Below are positions 552 through 32,949 of a DNA stretch of 64,000 nucleotides, piece by piece. Positions within the stretch are counted from its first letter, which is position 1; each line of letters starts with the position of its first letter. Made by a program: the position numbers and the translations under genes. Under the pieces are notes generated by a model, which worked only from the letters and a program-made list of their open reading frames with translations, was not told where the DNA came from and made no database searches. The stretch spans positions 1 through 64,000 of the forward strand of contig JAGXLV010000005.1 of NCBI GenBank assembly GCA_018334495.1, written 5' to 3'. The DNA is from Oleiphilaceae bacterium. GTDB taxonomy: Bacteria > Pseudomonadota > Gammaproteobacteria > Pseudomonadales > Oleiphilaceae.

Positions 552-1259
552 TTAAGCCTTACGGCGACGGGCAGCAACGACGCCTATAAGGCCGAGACCC
601 AGTAGACCCAGAGTGCCGGGCTCCGGTACCGAAACAGCAGAACGGAAGTTGTCAAAACCAAGGCCTACGCCTTCCATTTTGCTGCCTGCAAAGCGAAAGT
701 TGATTTGATCGAATGCACCGATATCGCCAACAGTGAAGGCCCAGGGAAGTCCATCGAGAGACCCGGGGCCATTACTATCGCCTAGGGGGCTAAGCTGCTG
801 GTTTAAAATGTTTCCGCCATTTAACGCAACGACGTTCCACTGCTCGGTTCCCTGAGCGTCATTGCCGTCAATGTCCCAAATCTGACCGGACGCAAAAGTA
901 ACGGCCTCGTCAAAAAGGATGGAAAGAAAAATATCCTGTCCGCCCCTGGAGCCAATCTCGCCTTCAGTGCGGAGAAACCAGTCGCCCAACCCAGGTGAAG
1001 CACTGAACTGGTCATCGTAGATACCGTTCTGATCATTCAGAAAACCTTGCGGATCGCCATCAGCGTCTCCGCTTGCCTCCAAATAGCCACCGACAAACGT
1101 GACGTTGTCAGTCAGACTGTATTCGGTGGTGACACTATCGTTATCACTGAGGCCACGCGAGGGGGCGTCTTCAAAATCAATTAACCCAGCAGCAGCGGGG
1201 CCAGAAGCCAAAAGTGCAATCGCTGCAGCAAGTGCTGATGTTTTCATCTTGTAGTTCAT
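552..1259 (-). CDS. PEP-CTERM sorting domain-containing protein
   Basis: N-terminal signal peptide; C-terminus VPEPGTLGLLGLGLIGVVAARRRKA is a classic PEP-CTERM motif + TM helix + basic tail. Confidence 0.93.
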   Translation of the reverse strand: MNYKMKTSALAAAIALLASGPAAAGLIDFEDAPSRGLSDNDSVTTEYSLTDNVTFVGGYLEASGDADGDPQGFLNDQNGIYDDQFSASPGLGDWFLRTEGEIGSRGGQDIFLSILFDEAVTFASGQIWDIDGNDAQGTEQWNVVALNGGNILNQQLSPLGDSNGPGSLDGLPWAFTVGDIGAFDQINFRFAGSKMEGVGLGFDNFRSAVSVPEPGTLGLLGLGLIGVVAARRRKA

Positions 1260-1307
1260 AATTTCAAATCCTTATGATTGTGACTAACTCTCTATACACA
1301 CGACATG

Positions 1308-1324
1308 AAGCAAAAAGCAGGCCA
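1308..1324 (-). promoter_or_regulatory. Candidate sigma-54 (-24/-12) promoter of the PEP-CTERM gene
   Basis: Reverse strand TGGCCTGCTTTTTGCTT: GG-N10-GC spacing and close match to TGGCACG-N4-TTGCW, about 50 bp upstream of the start codon. Confidence 0.7.
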
Positions 1325-1565
1325 TAAATATATAATCGATATATAACAATGATTTACGTATAATTTCAGGGTTTTATTTTTTGGATGTGTAAATTAACTC
1401 GACATCTGCGGGTCAACACATCTATGCCGTTTTTTAGCGCCACTCGCGACAACCGCCGGCTTCAAAGCTTCGCTGCTTTACGCACTCAAAAGCAGGGCGC
1501 ATGAGTGGCGTAAATAAACCTGACACTGTTGTCTTCCCTGTTGTGGTCCAATGAAACCCAGACAC

Positions 1566-1591
1566 AAAAAAAGCCAGCTTAAGCTGGCTTT
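1566..1591 (-). terminator. Rho-independent terminator downstream of prsT
   Basis: Reverse strand AAAGCCAGCTTAAGCTGGCTTTTTTT: perfect palindrome followed by a T tract. Confidence 0.85.
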
Positions 1592-1612: not shown

Positions 1613-4294
1613 TTAACCTTTAGTTTTCTCCAGGACCGCGTCAGCTTTGGCAGTCTCGCCTATTGCCCGGTAGGCCTCCACCAAGTGCATAGCGATCTCC
1701 TTCGATTGGGGCTGCAGCTCGTGGGCTTTCTCCAGTATGGATACGCTTTCAGCCTGTCTGTCTGACTTGAGGAGCACCCAGCCATAGGTATCCGCAATAG
1801 CAGCGGAATCCGGGCTTAGGTTGTAAGCTTTTTCGGCGGTTTTCAGGGCTTTGGGGTCGTTAACCTCCTGATAGGTCCAGGCCAGGTTGTTCAATGCTAC
1901 GACGTTGGTGGGCTGGATCGCTAACAGGTTTTCATAGGCATTTATGGCCTTGTCGTGTTCGCCCGCGCCCTGATAAGCCGTCGCCAGGGCAAGGTCGATT
2001 TGTGGCTCGTCCGGAAAGGCTTGCTCTGCGGATTCCAGGGATTCAATGGCTTCGCGGTTCTGTCCGGCGCGTTGGAGGGCAGAAGCATAACGTAACTCGG
2101 TTGAGGCAGTTCGCTGTTTTGTCAGAGCCAGCTCATAGAGTTTTACCGCTTCGTCGTGGCGGTTTTGGTCGGTCAGATAACTGGCCTCCAGCAGCAATGG
2201 CCGTGCGGAATCAGGGTGATTGCGCTTGGCTTCCTGTAACAGGTCCAGAGCGGTGGAGGCCTTGTCGGTGCGGAATGCCAGGGAGGCGGATTGCAGTGTG
2301 ACGTCTTCGTTTTCAGGGAAAAGCGCAAGCGCCCGGTTAAGAATTTCCCAGGCCCGATCGAGTTCTTCCGCTTCCGCTTTCTGGGCTGCTACGCGGGTGT
2401 AGAGCCTGGCAGCCAGGGAAGCCATCGGAGAGGTTTGATCTGCTCCTTCCACTTCAAGCAGATCGGCCGTGTGGGTGTCCATGGCCTGGGCGTCATCCTG
2501 CACCAGGGCGTATTCCAGCAGCATGGCTTTTGGAGCCCTGGCCTCCGGGTTGTCTTGCCAGACGGTTTCCAGGAATTCGACGGTTTCTTCCGGCGTCAGA
2601 ACACGGGCCAGGCCCTGCAGCGCTTCACGGTTGTTGGGCGCTTGCGAAACAGCGGCCCGGAAATAGTCGGCGGCCTTTGCTTCATCGCCCTGTGACAGGT
2701 TAAGCCGGCCAAGCGCGAGCGCCGGTGTCGGGTCTGACGGCGCCATCTCGGCAGCTTGCTCATAGTGCCGCTGCGCTTGTTCAAGTTTGTCCTGGTTGGC
2801 GGCGAGCTGGCCCAGGGCCATTCTGGCGGCCAGATTTTGGGGCTGATCGCCGGCCCAGGCATTCGCCTCCTCAACGGCTGCGGGCAGATCTTCCCCGGCG
2901 ACTCTGGCCTGGATAATCAGAATCCTGGCAGCGTCGGATTCGGCGTCTCTTTGCAGAATTTCCCGTGCCTGGGCAACGGCCAGCTCCGTTTCCCCTTCCT
3001 GCAAAAGGTGGCGGCCATACCGAAGCCTGAGGCTTGTATTATCGGGATTGAGACTCAGCGATTTTTGAATCAGCTCTTCTCCGGCGGCCTTGTCACCGCC
3101 CGCCAGTGTTGCGATACCTATCAGGGCGAGAACGCCCGGGTCGGTATCTTTGCCTTCGAGATTTTCAAGGATTTTTCGTGCTTCGGCCGGATTTTGCAGT
3201 TGAATCTTGGTGGCGGCGAGCAGTTTGGCCGCTTCTTCGGAGTTTTCCCCCTCCGCCAGGGGCGCCAACAGGCGCTCGGCGTCCTCTGCGCGGCCTTGAC
3301 GGAAACGAACCAGGCCCAGCATCATGGCGCTTTGTTGATGGCCCGGTGCCTGCGCCAGTACCTCTTCCAGGTAGTTTGCTGCGCTTTCCAGGTCGCCGTC
3401 CTGGTAGGCGGACTGGGCCGCCGTGAGATTGCTTTTAATAGTGCCGGGGGCGGATTTGGCCAGAATTTCCTCGTAGACGAAGGCTTCCGCGGATTTGCTT
3501 TGTTCTCTGAGTACCCGCACCAGGGCAGAGATGGTCTCGTACTTGCGGTAGGTCATCACATCGTATTGGCCGATGTCTTCAAGCGCGCGGACATAGGCCT
3601 CTTCGGCGTCTTGCCAGTTTTTGTTGGCGTCGGCGAGCTGTGCGCGCCAGAGCCAGAGTTCTGAATCTGAATCGTCGATTTCGCCGGCCTTCGCGATCAG
3701 GTTGCGGGCCTTCTCCTGATCGTTGCGGCCATAGGCCACTTTGGATAGCCCGATTAGCGGGTCAACGGAGGCCTCATCCAGGTCGCGGGCTTTTTCAAAA
3801 GCAAGTTCCGCATCGTCCAGGCGACCCGCTGCCAGCAAAACCTGGCCTTTCACTACGGTCGCGTCAAGTTCTATGGCAGGCTCCGCGTCTGTGATTTTGT
3901 CGAGATGGGCGAGAGCTTCGTCTGTGCGGCCCTGTAAACGGCTGGCTTTGGCTCGAATCAGGTTGGCCCGGTTATTCACGGCGGCGCGAGACTCATCGTC
4001 CATGCTTTCGATCAGGCGGTCCAGTTGCCGCTTGGCGTTCAGCGCGTCACCGGCGGTCAGCAGATTGCTGATAATGATAAAGTAGGGTTCGGGGTTTTGG
4101 GGCTGCAGTTCAATGGCGTTGCGGGCTTCCCGCGTGCTGGGGGCGAGCTCGCCCTGTTTCTGAAAAAAATTGGCCTGGTCCAGACGGCTAAGGTACTGGA
4201 TTTCCTCTTCGCTCATCTGTTCACTGCTGCCGCAACCGGCCAAGCCCAGCGCAGCCGCGAAAATAATAGAGTGGGTGAGCAAAAACGATCTCAT
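1613..4294 (-). CDS. prsT: XrtA/PEP-CTERM system TPR-repeat lipoprotein PrsT
   Basis: MRSFLLTHSIIFAAALGLAGCGSSEQ lipobox, ~870 aa of TPR repeats, adjacent to prsR/prsK. The ORF track start at 4354 is probably too early. Confidence 0.88.
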   Translation of the reverse strand: MRSFLLTHSIIFAAALGLAGCGSSEQMSEEEIQYLSRLDQANFFQKQGELAPSTREARNAIELQPQNPEPYFIIISNLLTAGDALNAKRQLDRLIESMDDESRAAVNNRANLIRAKASRLQGRTDEALAHLDKITDAEPAIELDATVVKGQVLLAAGRLDDAELAFEKARDLDEASVDPLIGLSKVAYGRNDQEKARNLIAKAGEIDDSDSELWLWRAQLADANKNWQDAEEAYVRALEDIGQYDVMTYRKYETISALVRVLREQSKSAEAFVYEEILAKSAPGTIKSNLTAAQSAYQDGDLESAANYLEEVLAQAPGHQQSAMMLGLVRFRQGRAEDAERLLAPLAEGENSEEAAKLLAATKIQLQNPAEARKILENLEGKDTDPGVLALIGIATLAGGDKAAGEELIQKSLSLNPDNTSLRLRYGRHLLQEGETELAVAQAREILQRDAESDAARILIIQARVAGEDLPAAVEEANAWAGDQPQNLAARMALGQLAANQDKLEQAQRHYEQAAEMAPSDPTPALALGRLNLSQGDEAKAADYFRAAVSQAPNNREALQGLARVLTPEETVEFLETVWQDNPEARAPKAMLLEYALVQDDAQAMDTHTADLLEVEGADQTSPMASLAARLYTRVAAQKAEAEELDRAWEILNRALALFPENEDVTLQSASLAFRTDKASTALDLLQEAKRNHPDSARPLLLEASYLTDQNRHDEAVKLYELALTKQRTASTELRYASALQRAGQNREAIESLESAEQAFPDEPQIDLALATAYQGAGEHDKAINAYENLLAIQPTNVVALNNLAWTYQEVNDPKALKTAEKAYNLSPDSAAIADTYGWVLLKSDRQAESVSILEKAHELQPQSKEIAMHLVEAYRAIGETAKADAVLEKTKG

Positions 4295-4350
4295 TAAGCA
4301 GTTCCTTTTTAATAGGTTCGTGTCCGTTGCAGAACGACCGGCTCGTGATT

Positions 4351-5733
4351 TCAATTATTCTGGGCGGTTAACATCTCGGAAGAGGTTTCCATATGGTACT
4401 TCTCGGTCAGGTTATAAAGTGTCGGACGGGTTATTCCCAGCAACCGTGCCGCTTGTGCCATGTTGAACTCAGTGGTGTGCAGGGCTTGCTGGATAGCTTG
4501 TCGTTCGGCAGTTTCCCGGACCTGTCTGAGGTTGAGCGGGCTCTCCGTTACCGCGGCATGGTGGTCAAGGTCCAGGTCATCGGCAGTGATGCGCTTGGCT
4601 TCGGACATGATAATGGCCCGTTTAACCTTGTTGATCATCTCCCGCACGTTACCAGGCCAGCTATACTGATTTATGCCAGCGACAGCGTCGTCACTGAAGC
4701 TCAGTTGTGACCGATCCATCTGCTTGCCCAGGCTGCTCAGCAGCGAGCGGGCGATAACCAGGGCATCACCGTTGCGGTCTCGCAGGGCCGGAATATCCAG
4801 GGTAATCTCACTGATGCGGTAGTACAGGTCCTCACGGAAATCCCCCGCTTCGATCAGTTTTGTGACATCCCGGTGGGTCGCGCAAACCACACGCACGTCG
4901 ACCGGGATGGATTGCACGCTGCCAACCCGGTCAATGACCCTCTCCTGCAGGAAACGGAGCAGTTTGGCTTGCAATGCCATGGGCATGTCGCCAATTTCAT
5001 CCAGAAAAAGAGTGCCGCCATTGGCCGTTTCAATTTTGCCTTTTTTGTTCTGGGTGGCGCCGGTGAAAGCGCCTTTCTCATAACCGAAAAGCTCACTTTC
5101 CAGCAGATTCTCCGGAATGGCCGCGCAGTTGATGGTGGCAAAAGGGTTTTTGGCGCGCCCGCTCAGATCGTGCAGCGCCCTGGCCAGAAGTTCCTTGCCC
5201 GTACCGGTCTCGCCGGTAATGAGCGTGGTAATGTCCGCCGGCGCGACTTTTTCGACTGTGCGGCATACTTTGAGCATTTCCGGGCTGGCCGCGACTATGC
5301 CTTTGATTGAGGTTCCATTGGCTGTGCGGGAAAGCTCGGAGTTTTGCTGCTCCAGCTCCGAGAGCCTCAGGGCGCGATTGACCACAAAGGTGAGGATGTC
5401 GGCATCCACCGGTTTTTGATAGAAATCACTGGCGCCCATACCAATGGCCTTGACGGCGTTTTCCTTGTCGTCCCGACCGGTTACCACAATGACTTTGGTT
5501 TGCGGCGCCAGACGCAGGATCTGCTCCAGTAATACAAAACCCTGGCTGGCGCCGCCCGGGTCGGGGGGCAGGCCGAGGTCGAGCGTGACGACATGAGGTT
5601 CAAACCGGCGCAAGGCTGTGAGCGCGGTTTCCCGATCGTTGGCGAGGTTGATTTCCAGGTCCGAACTGAAACACCATCGCATCTGGCTTTGAAGGCCCGG
5701 GTCATCTTCGATAATCAATAGTCGTTTGTTCAC
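4351..5733 (-). CDS. prsR: PEP-CTERM-box sigma-54-dependent response regulator PrsR
   Basis: Receiver (LLIIEDDPGLQ, VTLDLGLPPDPGG), AAA+ with GETGTGKE and GAFTGA motifs, C-terminal Fis-type HTH; GTG start at 5733. Confidence 0.9.
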   Translation of the reverse strand: MNKRLLIIEDDPGLQSQMRWCFSSDLEINLANDRETALTALRRFEPHVVTLDLGLPPDPGGASQGFVLLEQILRLAPQTKVIVVTGRDDKENAVKAIGMGASDFYQKPVDADILTFVVNRALRLSELEQQNSELSRTANGTSIKGIVAASPEMLKVCRTVEKVAPADITTLITGETGTGKELLARALHDLSGRAKNPFATINCAAIPENLLESELFGYEKGAFTGATQNKKGKIETANGGTLFLDEIGDMPMALQAKLLRFLQERVIDRVGSVQSIPVDVRVVCATHRDVTKLIEAGDFREDLYYRISEITLDIPALRDRNGDALVIARSLLSSLGKQMDRSQLSFSDDAVAGINQYSWPGNVREMINKVKRAIIMSEAKRITADDLDLDHHAAVTESPLNLRQVRETAERQAIQQALHTTEFNMAQAARLLGITRPTLYNLTEKYHMETSSEMLTAQNN

Positions 5734-5877
5734 TGAAATTAAAGTCCTTTTCGCTGGTGAACGGCGAATAGCTTCGGAACCACTCTGTCCCGAACATGTC
5801 CATATTTTACTTATATTTGACGCTTTGCAATCCCAATCCAAGCTTAAAGCAAAAATCGCCAGAAATCTGTCACCCTG

Positions 5878-8013
5878 TCAGGCGTTGTCAGCGCGCACAG
5901 AAGCCATTAATTTCCGCGTGCCCGTTTCCTCCGTTTGCGGGCTTTGTCGAGTCTCGGCCCGGGCGAGCGGCAGTCGCACGGACAGGCAGGACCCGAGGCC
6001 TGGTTCACTGGTGACGTCAATGGCGCCGCCTATGCCTCGCAGGTATTCACGCGCCTGGTAAGCGCCGATGCCCATTCCTGTCAGCCCCTTAGTGCTTTCA
6101 AACGGTTTGAACAGGCGCGTTTTGATAAATTCTTCAGTCATGCCGGAGCCGGAGTCCTGGATGAACAGCACGACATTATCGCTGGCTTTTTTCAGGGTGA
6201 GACTCACTTCACCTTCCGGACGTGTGGCATCTTGCGCGTTCTGGATCAAATGACCGAGAACACTGCGCAGTTGATCAGGATCTGCCGACACCAAAATTTT
6301 TTCGTCGGGTTTTGGAAAGCTCGGCGCGGGGCTGCTACGCCCGTGGTGGTTAGCAAGTTCGTCAACCAGTGTGCATAGGTCAATTGCCTGAGTGACGTCG
6401 TTGTCATCCAGCGGCCGGCGGATGTGATCAACCAGATTCGTCATTTTCTGCACGGCATGATCCGTGGTGTGAATCATGTCATTAATAAACTCGGGGTTGT
6501 CACGATGTTTGGGGGCGTTGGTCACCAGCAAGGATAGCTGTGCAATCAACGTCTTGAGGTCGTGAACCATGAAAGAGGAGGCTTTGCTGACCGCCTCAAA
6601 CTGCATTGCCCGGGCTAATCGGCTCTGGGCATCGGCCTGGGCCAGAAGGTTCGATGTCTGGCGGGCGACCACGCGCACCAGGTCGAAATTTTCCCAGTTG
6701 AGCGCTATTTTCGCGTAGGAATTTCGCACCAGTGTAATGCCGTATAACTCTTCGCCAAGGTACATGGGGATGATCAGCCAGCCATCGGAGAGCCCCAGTA
6801 TGGCGTCCGGGATTTCCAGCAGGTTGTAGCTGAGCGGGTCAGCCTCGTATTCATGGAGGTCAACGATCCATTCGCGTTCATTGAAGAATCGGACCAGTTC
6901 CGATTGCCCGTCGATGGCGGAGTATTTCGGCGACACCAGGTTAACGGCGGTGTTCAGGGTGTAATTGCCATCCTCGTCCCGTATCCAGATAACACCGGAA
7001 TTGCTTTCCACCAGGTTGGCCAGGATGCGCACCACGCGCTCGGGCAGCGGCGGGTCGTCACTGAGGTGGGCGAACGCCTTGGTCATTTTTAGCCATTCGT
7101 CCCGATAGTCGTACTTGTAATCGAAGAAATTCTGGCTGATAAACATCATCAGCCGCGCCCTGAAACGTGTGGACATGAGTAGGGCGGTCAGGAACGTGAG
7201 CATTATGGACAGAAAAAGAATTTGAAGGGCATCGCCCCAGTTGCCGCCCAGCGCCCGCACGTAATAACCGCCGGCAGAGGCGAGAAGCAGATAAACCGCA
7301 GCGAACATCAGGGCGCCGACATGGAACACGGCGTTTCTGGAGAGTTGGAATTCTACCGGCTGCCGTCGCGTGTTGATCATGTTGACCGCGAATAGCGGCA
7401 CCACAAGGGCGTTCAGGGCACCCCGGGCGCTCCAGAATGAATCGGATATCTGGCCGAACAGCAGCGCGTCGGCATACATCACGAAATCGAACGCCAGTAT
7501 CGTGCCAATGCCAATGCAGGTGTATTTAACACTGGAGCGGCCGAAGGACAGGGAGTTTCGCCATATCTGCTCAATCAGGGAAAGGCCCAGTAATATCAGA
7601 GCGATCTGGCCGACCAGTTTGGCTTTGTCGCCGATCAGTTGCCAGTTGGTGAAATATTCAAGTAAGACGCAGACGACGAGCAGAGCAACCAGTGCCTGCG
7701 TCGACCGGCCCAGAAAGCGGCGCACCTGGACGGCCGGCCGGGCGTTCCGGGCGCCATCGCGAATGAGGGCAAACAGAACAAGAATCCAGAGGGCGTCGCG
7801 CAGCAATTCAATCAGGTAACGAGCGAAAAACGGTGGTTGGCCCCAGATATTCTGGGCCACCAGTGACGCGGCCCAGAGTGCGGAAACCAGCGCGGCTGCG
7901 AACAGAGCCCGGTCGGAATCACGGCGCAGGTATTTGGTCGCGATGAGGATCGCCAATAAAAAAAACGTCAGCGCTGCCGCTAGATGGCTGATCAGGCTAA
8001 AGTCTGTAAGCAT
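5878..8013 (-). CDS. prsK: XrtA/PEP-CTERM system histidine kinase PrsK
   Basis: Multi-TM N-terminus, GAF-like region, HisKA (FMVHDLKTLIAQLSLL) and HATPase motifs (GTGIGAYQARE-like end region), next to prsR. Confidence 0.88.
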   Translation of the reverse strand: MLTDFSLISHLAAALTFFLLAILIATKYLRRDSDRALFAAALVSALWAASLVAQNIWGQPPFFARYLIELLRDALWILVLFALIRDGARNARPAVQVRRFLGRSTQALVALLVVCVLLEYFTNWQLIGDKAKLVGQIALILLGLSLIEQIWRNSLSFGRSSVKYTCIGIGTILAFDFVMYADALLFGQISDSFWSARGALNALVVPLFAVNMINTRRQPVEFQLSRNAVFHVGALMFAAVYLLLASAGGYYVRALGGNWGDALQILFLSIMLTFLTALLMSTRFRARLMMFISQNFFDYKYDYRDEWLKMTKAFAHLSDDPPLPERVVRILANLVESNSGVIWIRDEDGNYTLNTAVNLVSPKYSAIDGQSELVRFFNEREWIVDLHEYEADPLSYNLLEIPDAILGLSDGWLIIPMYLGEELYGITLVRNSYAKIALNWENFDLVRVVARQTSNLLAQADAQSRLARAMQFEAVSKASSFMVHDLKTLIAQLSLLVTNAPKHRDNPEFINDMIHTTDHAVQKMTNLVDHIRRPLDDNDVTQAIDLCTLVDELANHHGRSSPAPSFPKPDEKILVSADPDQLRSVLGHLIQNAQDATRPEGEVSLTLKKASDNVVLFIQDSGSGMTEEFIKTRLFKPFESTKGLTGMGIGAYQAREYLRGIGGAIDVTSEPGLGSCLSVRLPLARAETRQSPQTEETGTRKLMASVRADNA

Positions 8014-22530: not shown

Positions 22531-24210
22531 ATGGATTTCGAGCAATTCTACAAGGACAAATATCCGCCAGGTGTGCCCACCAGGATTGACCTGGACCAAT
22601 ACGAGAGCATGGTTGATGTCTTTGAAAAATCGGTAAAAAAGTTCGCCGACCGGCCCGCTTTTAGCGCGGTTGGTGTAACGCTGACCTATCGCGACCTTGA
22701 TAGGTTGAGCCGCCATTTTGCCTCCTGGTTGCAAAACAAAACCGAACTCAAGCCTGGCGACCGTATCGCGGTTCAGATGCCGAACCTGTCGCAATATCCT
22801 GTGGTCGTTTTCGGCGCCATGCGCGCGGGCCTGATTGTGGTCAACACCAACCCCCTGTACACCACCCGTGAAATGGAGCACCAGTTTAACGACTCGGGGG
22901 CCAAGGCTCTGGTGGTGCTTGCCAATATGGCGGACAACGTGGAAAAAGTGTTGCCGCGAACCGGTCTTGAGTACGTCATTGTCACCGAAATCGCCGACAT
23001 GCATCCGCCGGTCAAGCGCACCCTGATGAATGCGGTGGTCAAGCACGTCAAAAAGATGGTGCCCAAGTACAACCTGCCCCAGGCGTTCCGCCTGCCAGCG
23101 GTCTTGAGCGAAGGCGCGAAACAGAAGTTCACACCGGTGCCGGCCAAGGCTGACGATATCGCGGTACTGCAGTACACCGGCGGCACCACCGGTGTAGCCA
23201 AGGGCGCGATGCTCTCCCACGCTAACCTCGTTGCCAACTTGCTGCAGACCCGGCCGATGATGGGCGGCGTGATTGAGGAAGGTAAAGAGGTGGTGATCGC
23301 GCCTCTGCCGTTGTACCACATTTATTCGTTCACGCTGAACTGCGGCATTATGCTGGAGGAGGGCGCCCATAATGTGCTTATCCCCAACCCCCGCGATATC
23401 CCGGGTTTCGTAAAAGAGCTTAAGAATCACCGATTCACGGCTTTTCTGGGGTTGAATACCTTGTTTGTGGCGCTTTGCAATAATGATGAATTTCGCGCTC
23501 TCGATTTCAGTGCCCTGAAGCTGACGTCCTCGGGCGGCATGGCTTTGACGAATGCTACGGCCAAGCGATGGGAAGAGGTAACCGGCTGCGAAATCAGCGA
23601 AGGTTACGGCATGACCGAAACCTCACCGGTGGTGACTTTTAATCCGCCTAACGCGATTCAGTTGGGCACCATCGGTCTGCCGGTCTGCAACACCGAGATT
23701 CAGACCCTGGATGACGATAACAAGCAAACACCCCTCGGCGAGCCGGGCGAACTCTGCGTCAAAGGCCCCCAGGTGATGGTGGGTTACTGGCAGCGCCCGG
23801 AGGAAACCAAAAAATCCTTTACCGAGGATGGCTATTTGCGCACCGGTGACATTGCCGTGATCCAGGAGGACGGCTACGTTCGCATTGTCGACCGCAAGAA
23901 AGACATGATCATTGTGTCCGGCTTCAATGTCTTTCCCAACGAGATTGAAGACATTGTGAGCGAACACCCGAAAGTCCTGGAATGCGCGGCGGTAGGCGTG
24001 GAGGATGAAAAGAGTGGTGAAGCGGTCAAGGTGTTTGTGGTCGCGACCTCTCCTGGCCTCACCAAGGAAGAACTCAAGGAATTTTGCCGGGAGCGGCTAA
24101 CGGCCTACAAAGTGCCCAAGACATTTGAATTCCGGGACGAGCTGCCTAAAACCAACGTAGGTAAAATCCTGCGCCGGCAGTTGCGCGACGAAGATGTGAA
24201 AAAAGCGTAA
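22531..24210 (+). CDS. fadD: Long-chain-fatty-acid--CoA ligase
   Basis: AMP-binding motif YTGGTTGVAKGAMLSH, GYGMTETSP, VDRKKDMIIVSGFNVFPNEIE. Confidence 0.9.
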   Translation: MDFEQFYKDKYPPGVPTRIDLDQYESMVDVFEKSVKKFADRPAFSAVGVTLTYRDLDRLSRHFASWLQNKTELKPGDRIAVQMPNLSQYPVVVFGAMRAGLIVVNTNPLYTTREMEHQFNDSGAKALVVLANMADNVEKVLPRTGLEYVIVTEIADMHPPVKRTLMNAVVKHVKKMVPKYNLPQAFRLPAVLSEGAKQKFTPVPAKADDIAVLQYTGGTTGVAKGAMLSHANLVANLLQTRPMMGGVIEEGKEVVIAPLPLYHIYSFTLNCGIMLEEGAHNVLIPNPRDIPGFVKELKNHRFTAFLGLNTLFVALCNNDEFRALDFSALKLTSSGGMALTNATAKRWEEVTGCEISEGYGMTETSPVVTFNPPNAIQLGTIGLPVCNTEIQTLDDDNKQTPLGEPGELCVKGPQVMVGYWQRPEETKKSFTEDGYLRTGDIAVIQEDGYVRIVDRKKDMIIVSGFNVFPNEIEDIVSEHPKVLECAAVGVEDEKSGEAVKVFVVATSPGLTKEELKEFCRERLTAYKVPKTFEFRDELPKTNVGKILRRQLRDEDVKKA

Positions 24211-31260: not shown

Positions 31261-32949
31261 ATGTATTACGATTTTTTCGGCTTTCGGGAACCGCCTTTTT
31301 CGATAGCCCCCGACCCGCGTTATCTGTACCTCAGTGAGCGCCATAAAGAAGCTCTGGCCCATCTGATGTATGGCGTTCAGGGCCAGGGCGGTTTTATTGT
31401 TATTACCGGGGAAGTTGGCACCGGCAAGACCACTGTCAGCCGTTGTTTTATCAGCAATGCGCCGGATTACGTCGATATTGCCCTGGTGCTGAATCCCAAG
31501 CTGTCCGCGCGCGAATTACTTTCCAGCATTTGCGATGAGCTGGGTATTGTTCATCCAGTGGGCTTGAGCATTAAAATACTCATCGACCTGATTAACAAGG
31601 ACCTGTTGGCCGCCTACGGAGCCGGACGGCATAAGGTGCTGATCATTGATGAGGCACAGAACCTGTCGGCAGAGGTGCTTGAGCAACTGCGCCTGCTGAC
31701 CAACCTTGAAACAGCGGAAAAAAAGCTTCTGCAGATTGTATTGCTGGGCCAGCCGGAGTTGCAGGAAATGCTGTCCCGCCCGTCTCTTCGCCAGTTGTCA
31801 CAGCGCATCACTGCGCGCTATCACCTGGACGCCATTCATCGCCGCGAATTGCCTGCTTACTTGCGTTATCGGCTCAGTGTGGCAGGCCAGGGAGCGGAGT
31901 TGTTCACGCCCGCGGCGATCAGGCGGCTGTACCGTCTCAGCGGCGGCGTACCCCGGCTGATTAACCTGATCAGTGACCGCGCCTTGCTGGGCGCCTACAG
32001 CGCTGACGAGCACAAGGTCACCGGCGGTCACATACGCCGCGCCGGCGGGGAAGTTTTCGGGAGCGCCAGTTCAGAGAAGCTGTGGCCGGTCATGCGCTAC
32101 GCCACCCTGGCGGTAGCCTTGAGCATTGTCGTGGTTCTGGCGCTCACGGTCCCGGATCGGGATGAGTCAAGCCTCCGTGCCGACATTGAATTGCCCAACA
32201 CATCCGGCGCGGTTGAGCGCGAGGATGCCGGGCAGAAGGACGCGCCTGGTGCAAGCGAAGACGACGCAGCGGAGGGACAAAAATCGGCTGCCACAACGAC
32301 GAGTGTCCCGGCCCAGCCTGAGCCGGCCTGGGATATTACCCGTGACGCGATGAGCCTGGATGCCGCATTCGAAACACTTTTCAGCCGCTGGGGCGTCAAC
32401 TACCTTCCCGAAACGACGACAACGGCCTGCGATCATGCTGAGAGTCTTGAGCTCAGGTGTTTGTATCGTCGTGGCAACTGGCGAAGTCTGGAGCGAATCG
32501 ATCGTCCGGTCATTCTCGATCTTGAGGAGTTGCCCGGTGATGATCGTTTCGTCACCCTGGTGTCATTGGACGGTGACCGGGCGACTATTGCCACGGCTAG
32601 CGGCGAAGAGCGGCTTCCAATTGCAACCATCAAGCGCTATTGGCTGGGTCAATACAGATTGCTTTGGCGGGTTCCGCCCTTTCTGTCCGCCACGACACAA
32701 GTCGTGCCGAAAGACCGTAAAGCCCTGTGGCTCACGGCGCGATTAATGCGGCTGATTGAACTTCATGCCGCCGATGGCAGAGAGCGGGAAGAGATCGAAT
32801 CGATGAACCTGTCTGATCAGCTGCGCTGGTATCAGGAGCGCAAGGGCCTGAAAGTCGATGGTATTGCAGGGCCCATGACGCTGATCCAGATGAGCGGAGA
32901 CCTTGAAGAAGACCGGCCACGGTTGTTCTCAGGGGAGGGTCAGGGCTGA
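31261..32949 (+). CDS. gspA: General secretion pathway protein A (ExeA-like ATPase with peptidoglycan-binding domain)
   Basis: MYYDFFGFREPPFSIAPDPRYLYLS, Walker A GEVGTGKTT, C-terminal QLRWYQERKGLKVDGIAGPMTL. Confidence 0.9.
   Translation: MYYDFFGFREPPFSIAPDPRYLYLSERHKEALAHLMYGVQGQGGFIVITGEVGTGKTTVSRCFISNAPDYVDIALVLNPKLSARELLSSICDELGIVHPVGLSIKILIDLINKDLLAAYGAGRHKVLIIDEAQNLSAEVLEQLRLLTNLETAEKKLLQIVLLGQPELQEMLSRPSLRQLSQRITARYHLDAIHRRELPAYLRYRLSVAGQGAELFTPAAIRRLYRLSGGVPRLINLISDRALLGAYSADEHKVTGGHIRRAGGEVFGSASSEKLWPVMRYATLAVALSIVVVLALTVPDRDESSLRADIELPNTSGAVEREDAGQKDAPGASEDDAAEGQKSAATTTSVPAQPEPAWDITRDAMSLDAAFETLFSRWGVNYLPETTTTACDHAESLELRCLYRRGNWRSLERIDRPVILDLEELPGDDRFVTLVSLDGDRATIATASGEERLPIATIKRYWLGQYRLLWRVPPFLSATTQVVPKDRKALWLTARLMRLIELHAADGREREEIESMNLSDQLRWYQERKGLKVDGIAGPMTLIQMSGDLEEDRPRLFSGEGQG

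Follow-up and report, generated by a model that had tools for sequence, protein, structure and literature searches.

The promoters of PEP-CTERM genes that carry a PrsR-associated sigma-54 module keep the activator site at distances from the promoter that are quantised in steps of about 11 bp, and a sequence resembling an IHF site occupies a fixed place between the two. The quantisation is a statistical observation. We think it rather probable that these promoters constitute a natural helical ruler, in which the activator stands at whole 11.0-bp turns (six of them, 41-96 nt) and a pseudo-symmetric putative IHF site, which works in both orientations, provides a required bend at a constant distance of about 19-20 bp upstream of the -24 TGG. 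The starting point is a PEP-CTERM gene at positions 552-1259 of the window (the whole 64,000-nucleotide stretch of an Oleiphilaceae genome that was analysed), which very probably forms a single-gene unit under a PrsR-activated sigma-54 promoter. This instance, at 552-1404, is ordinary; the comparison around it provides natural data on a large scale about the limits that helix geometry sets to contact between bacterial enhancers and promoters, with hundreds of promoters, many families, one activator family and six permitted spacings.

A module of this kind was described by Haft et al. in 2006 (PMC1569441): a 17-nt motif 1 ending in TTTACA, a spacer of 62.8 ± 10.6 nt (range 32-92) and a -24/-12 motif 2, which stands on average 71 nt (range 23-221) before the start codon. 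Of 167 proteobacterial PEP-CTERM genes, 99 were preceded by it, and its occurrence tracks that of PrsR, PrsK and PrsT. The same arrangement is complete here (Table 1): the PEP-CTERM gene is preceded by a motif 1 with the TTTACA ending, a 63-nt spacer and a motif 2 located 48 nt before the ATG, and the genome encodes PrsK, PrsR and PrsT as well as RpoN, IHF-alpha and two exosortases. The completeness of the published module supports what the preliminary description of this DNA had proposed, namely that sigma-54 and PrsR control the gene at 552-1259.

Table 1. Features of the promoter and its neighbourhood (window positions; all on the minus strand)
Feature	Position	Strand	Details
PEP-CTERM protein gene	552..1259	-	235 aa; signal peptide; VPEPGTLGLLGLGLIGVVAARRRKA C-terminus
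Sigma-54 -24/-12 element (Haft motif 2)	1308..1324	-	TGGCCTGCTTTTTGCTT; GG-N10-GC; 48 nt before ATG
IHF-like core (candidate)	1344..1356	-	TAAATCATTGTTA; 1 mismatch to YAANNNNTTGATW; 19 nt upstream of -24 TGG
Activator site (Haft motif 1)	1388..1404	-	TGTCGAGTTAATTTACA; 17 nt; 63-nt spacer to motif 2; putative PrsR site
Second motif 1 copy	1509..1525	-	TGTCAGGTTTATTTACG; 121 bp upstream of first copy; no sigma-54 site of its own
Terminator-like hairpin, 3′ of prsT	1570..1591	-	
prsT, TPR lipoprotein	1613..4354	-	TIGR02917, 386 bits; between prsR and the PEP-CTERM gene
prsR, sigma-54 activator/response regulator	4351..5841	-	TIGR02915, 679 bits (cut-off 502.6)
prsK, histidine kinase	5878..8013	-	TIGR02916, 655 bits

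The -24/-12 element reads on the minus strand exactly as had been claimed, with the GG-N10-GC spacing, and deviates from the consensus at two positions (CT for AC in TGGCAC). The pattern proposed for a wider scan, TGGC-N8-TTGC, had the spacing wrong; the actual site fits TGGC-N7-TTGC. That pattern occurs nine times in the window against 4.5 expected, a count reached in 4 of 100 shuffles, and 100 times in the genome against 45 for the reversed pattern. The -24/-12 site alone thus proves little, and we dropped it as evidence by itself. The actual evidence for control by sigma-54 and PrsR is motif 1 at 1404-1388, which is absent from the preliminary description. It is the sole match in the window to GTCGAGTTAATTTACAC within three mismatches (0.04 expected), and its pairing with motif 2, spanning 1404-1308, scores 42.2. 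The next-best pair elsewhere in the window reaches 16.7, once pairs sharing these motifs are set aside, and the 99th percentile for shuffled upstream regions is 11.3. In combination with motif 1, the sigma-54 site is therefore far above chance. One could still suppose that the gene is driven by a sigma-70 promoter and matches the sigma-54 pattern by chance, given that the -24/-12 match on its own is hardly significant in the window. However, the three other elements, namely motif 1, the phased spacer and the IHF-like site, all fall in register, and the minus strand between 300 and 1700 showed nothing resembling a sigma-70 promoter, so that this explanation is very improbable. Judging from the position of the -24/-12 element, transcription would start near 1298, ahead of the ATG at 1259.

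Second copies of motif 1, such as the one at 1525-1509, are also enriched: a set of 97 related promoters contained 15 of them within 200 bp, against 0.8 expected. Since most of them come from one paralogous PEP-CTERM group (MNTALKRTLLST...), where they stand at 167-169 bp, we make no phase claim for them and did not retain the second copy as a general phased feature.

Profile searches place the product of the gene among PEP-CTERM proteins (PF07589, 36 bits, cut-off 20.7; TIGR02595, 27.8 bits, cut-off 16). Membership in the PepA flocculation protein family (NF033554) was considered and rejected, with a score of 22.9 bits against a cut-off of 80 and a match restricted to the C-terminus. The same strand carries prsT, prsR and prsK further upstream, all scoring above their curated cut-offs. 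PrsR matches the sigma-54 interaction domain PF00158 and retains an intact GAFTGA in its translation, which agrees with the earlier claim of such an activator nearby, with prsT intervening. The prsR open reading frame begins at a TTG about 40 codons ahead of the family match, and its true start is probably internal. With the hairpin at 1591-1570 following prsT, the gene at 552-1259 would form a separate transcription unit. An inverted repeat seen by eye at about 506-530 could terminate this gene.

The preliminary description had also emphasised that a target lies next to its regulators. The genes prsT, prsR and prsK do adjoin the PEP-CTERM gene, but the adjacency is not special. An acyltransferase-epimerase-prsK-prsR-prsT block is conserved genus-wide and the PEP-CTERM gene near it is variable, so the adjacency is local and no defining feature. 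When an ortholog of the 552-1259 protein was sought beside prsT in relatives, none was clear, the best candidate having about 29% identity over most of the length. Elsewhere in the window, positions 1-291 of the minus strand hold the 5′ part of a lipoprotein-like gene that runs off the contig end and whose product has a signal peptide, a lipobox and repeats rich in glutamate, threonine and serine. The gene at 31261-32949 (plus strand) has a strong yet sub-cut-off match to TIGR03015, the XrtA/PEP-CTERM-associated ATPase (258.7 versus 324.5 bits).

The PrsR profile has 28 matches in the genome, so many related activators exist, and another NtrC-type activator might act at the promoter instead of PrsR. 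However, among the matches listed only one protein exceeds the PrsR cut-off, motif 1 tracks PrsR phylogenetically (Haft 2006), and PrsR control of PEP-CTERM genes has been reported, at least in summary, for Zoogloea. We consider such a substitution improbable, and PrsR the expected activator.

The module is not confined to this gene. Five PEP-CTERM genes of the genome (G000) carry it, with spacers of 63 nt (contig C27), 52 nt (C15), 73 nt (C109), 75 nt (C59) and 65 nt (C49, read from coordinates); as the assembly is a draft in 162 contigs, any count of the regulon is a minimum. On contig C49 (23851-23921, plus strand, part of L037), one PEP-CTERM gene is preceded by a pair of sigma-54-like sites at 55 bp from each other, of which the second alone stands in register (65 nt) with the motif 1 at 23824-23840. 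On contig C44 (L034), a PEP-CTERM gene lacks the module and has a run of TTTA repeats ahead of it. Among the upstream regions of PEP-CTERM genes from this genome and its relatives, 97 of 105 score above the 99th percentile of shuffles, and the two-motif fit in these relatives puts the spacers solely at 50-54, 61-65, 73-77 and 85 nt.

We examined the spacing independently of gene context and genus, with a strict pattern (TGTC-N7-TTTACA, N38-98, TGGC-N8-TGCW) in 369 genomes drawn evenly from the class; a looser pattern, TTTACA-N50-80-TGG, gave an excess of chance matches and was replaced by the strict one. There were 203 matches, in 92 of the 369 genomes, compared with a single match for the reversed control. 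Their spacers fall into clusters at about 41, 52, 63, 74, 85 and 96 nt, and the gaps between the clusters are nearly empty. The best period is 11.05 bp (R 0.73); with one module per genome, R is 0.68 and the period 10.8-11.2 bp, whereas a null in which spacers were jittered by 8 reached a maximum R of 0.35. In a whole-phylum sample, the few matches outside the class lie mostly at 64-65 and 74 nt, with exceptions at 66 and 78. The 63-nt spacer of the window is in phase with the class clusters. Quantisation at about 11 bp means that the activator site stays on the same side of the helix as seen from the promoter. In the open-access literature that we searched, which leaves most subscription journals outside, we found neither this phasing nor a fixed IHF-like site described for the PrsR/PEP-CTERM system.

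Within the spacer, matches to the IHF consensus concentrate at a single place. The sequence YAANNNNTTGATW is enriched ending 17-21 nt before the TGG, and its reverse complement ending 4-8 nt before it. Allowing one mismatch at this fixed place, a core is present in 39 of the 99 promoters from the class and in 31 of the 97 from the order, where shuffling predicts about two; with two mismatches the figures are 74 of 99 and 71 of 97, against 16 and 14 expected, and about a quarter of related promoters have no recognisable core even then. At one mismatch the two orientations are mutually exclusive within a promoter. If the centre of the IHF site is placed by the geometry of the H′ site, both orientations put it mostly at -18.5 and -20.5 from the TGG, which is nearly the same point. 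The IHF-like core keeps its place whether the spacer is of class 52, 63 or 74, and the distance to motif 1 rises through about 21, 31-32 and 41-42 nt, so whole turns are added between the activator site and the putative bend. In the longest class (96) the core is mostly absent, being present in 2 of 8. The window has a candidate site between activator site and promoter, a one-mismatch core 19 nt from the TGG, which is the modal position in related promoters. This candidate, too, is absent from the preliminary description.

These promoters might instead operate without IHF, the conserved AT-rich stretch ahead of -24 being DNA with an intrinsic bend or serving the alpha subunit of RNA polymerase as an UP-element, and only PrsR and sigma-54 mattering. 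A and T peak every ~11 bp, at -31, -20 and -9 from the TGG, as in bent DNA; many promoters fit the IHF consensus solely at two mismatches; and the qrr sigma-54 loops show comparable AT periodicity. Plain A-tract bending would not, however, predict that WATCAA-N4-TTR cores exceed expectation about 18-fold at precisely two positions, each tied to one orientation, which share one IHF centre and never occur together at one mismatch. We therefore regard a promoter without IHF as a possible but rather unlikely alternative to the putative IHF site.

With PrsR and IHF, the promoter would most likely work as follows. Sigma-54 RNA polymerase would wait in a closed complex at 1324-1308. Upon some signal, PrsK would phosphorylate PrsR, which would occupy the 17-bp motif 1 (1404-1388), perhaps with assistance from the second copy (1525-1509). 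The short DNA segment would be bent by IHF sitting at about 1360-1326, and the bend would let the AAA+ ring of PrsR, through its GAFTGA loops, contact sigma-54 and open the promoter near 1298. The PEP-CTERM product would then be exported and processed by exosortase into the surface or exopolysaccharide layer. We infer the binding of PrsR and IHF at these sites, and the looping geometry, from the sequence elements, whereas dependence on RpoN and on PrsK/PrsR would be expected by analogy with other species.

In the class-wide search, the module precedes a PEP-CTERM gene in 54 of the 84 cases with a complete stretch, under a lenient pattern; this figure is rough, as ORF calling mis-frames some class loci. 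Some class matches have no demonstrated sorting-signal gene downstream, so the module may also serve genes of other kinds. In other families, the module is followed at some loci by genes without a recognised sorting signal; by eye they encode GGDEF-type proteins at L259 and at L261, which is probably related to it, and an ATPase resembling ExeA at L284. These loci suggest that the targets of PrsR extend beyond PEP-CTERM genes.

The set of modules yields an evolutionary estimate of the helical repeat in vivo, about 11.0 bp. Phase and IHF position together give a sharper rule for finding PrsR targets, and putative IHF would be an added player in the control of the PEP-CTERM surface proteins that hold flocs together.

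Sigma-54/PrsK-PrsR control of PEP-CTERM genes, which had been called established, is in fact older and better supported than was claimed, from the Proteobacteria-wide prediction of 2006 to RpoN1 in Aquincola and PrsK/PrsR in Zoogloea. The module of Haft et al. resembles the window in being a single-gene PEP-CTERM unit with PrsKRT in the genome, but the spacer was given there only as a mean and standard deviation, and the 11-bp quantisation and fixed IHF-like site found here were not mentioned. The pepA gene of Aquincola tertiaricarbonis RN12 depends on RpoN1 and has a mapped -24/-12 start (PMC9850573). As in the window, this PEP-CTERM gene adjoins prsT and has a -24/-12 promoter with a predicted enhancer upstream. 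In contrast, pepA lies upstream of prsT, whereas our gene lies downstream of prsT, past the terminator-like hairpin, and its product falls outside the NCBIfam PepA family. For Zoogloea resiniphila, control of PEP-CTERM genes by PrsK/PrsR is reported (Gao 2018, as summarised in PMC9012009). In the Vibrio qrr sigma-54/LuxO system, the lengths of 61 loops cluster about 11 bp apart (PMC4740811); that case concerns another activator and one genus, whereas the present one comprises 203 modules from 92 genomes, which fall into six spacing classes and have an IHF-like site at a fixed place. The window promoter is a further case of the published module, to which the comparison adds, for many families, the phasing and the constant position of an IHF-like site. 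IHF-assisted promoters of the NtrC family, for example those of nif type, have the order activator site, IHF site, sigma-54 site. With the candidate IHF site, the order of elements would be the same here, but the footprint of that site would lie directly against the -24 element, at a constant distance, and the activator site moves by whole turns.
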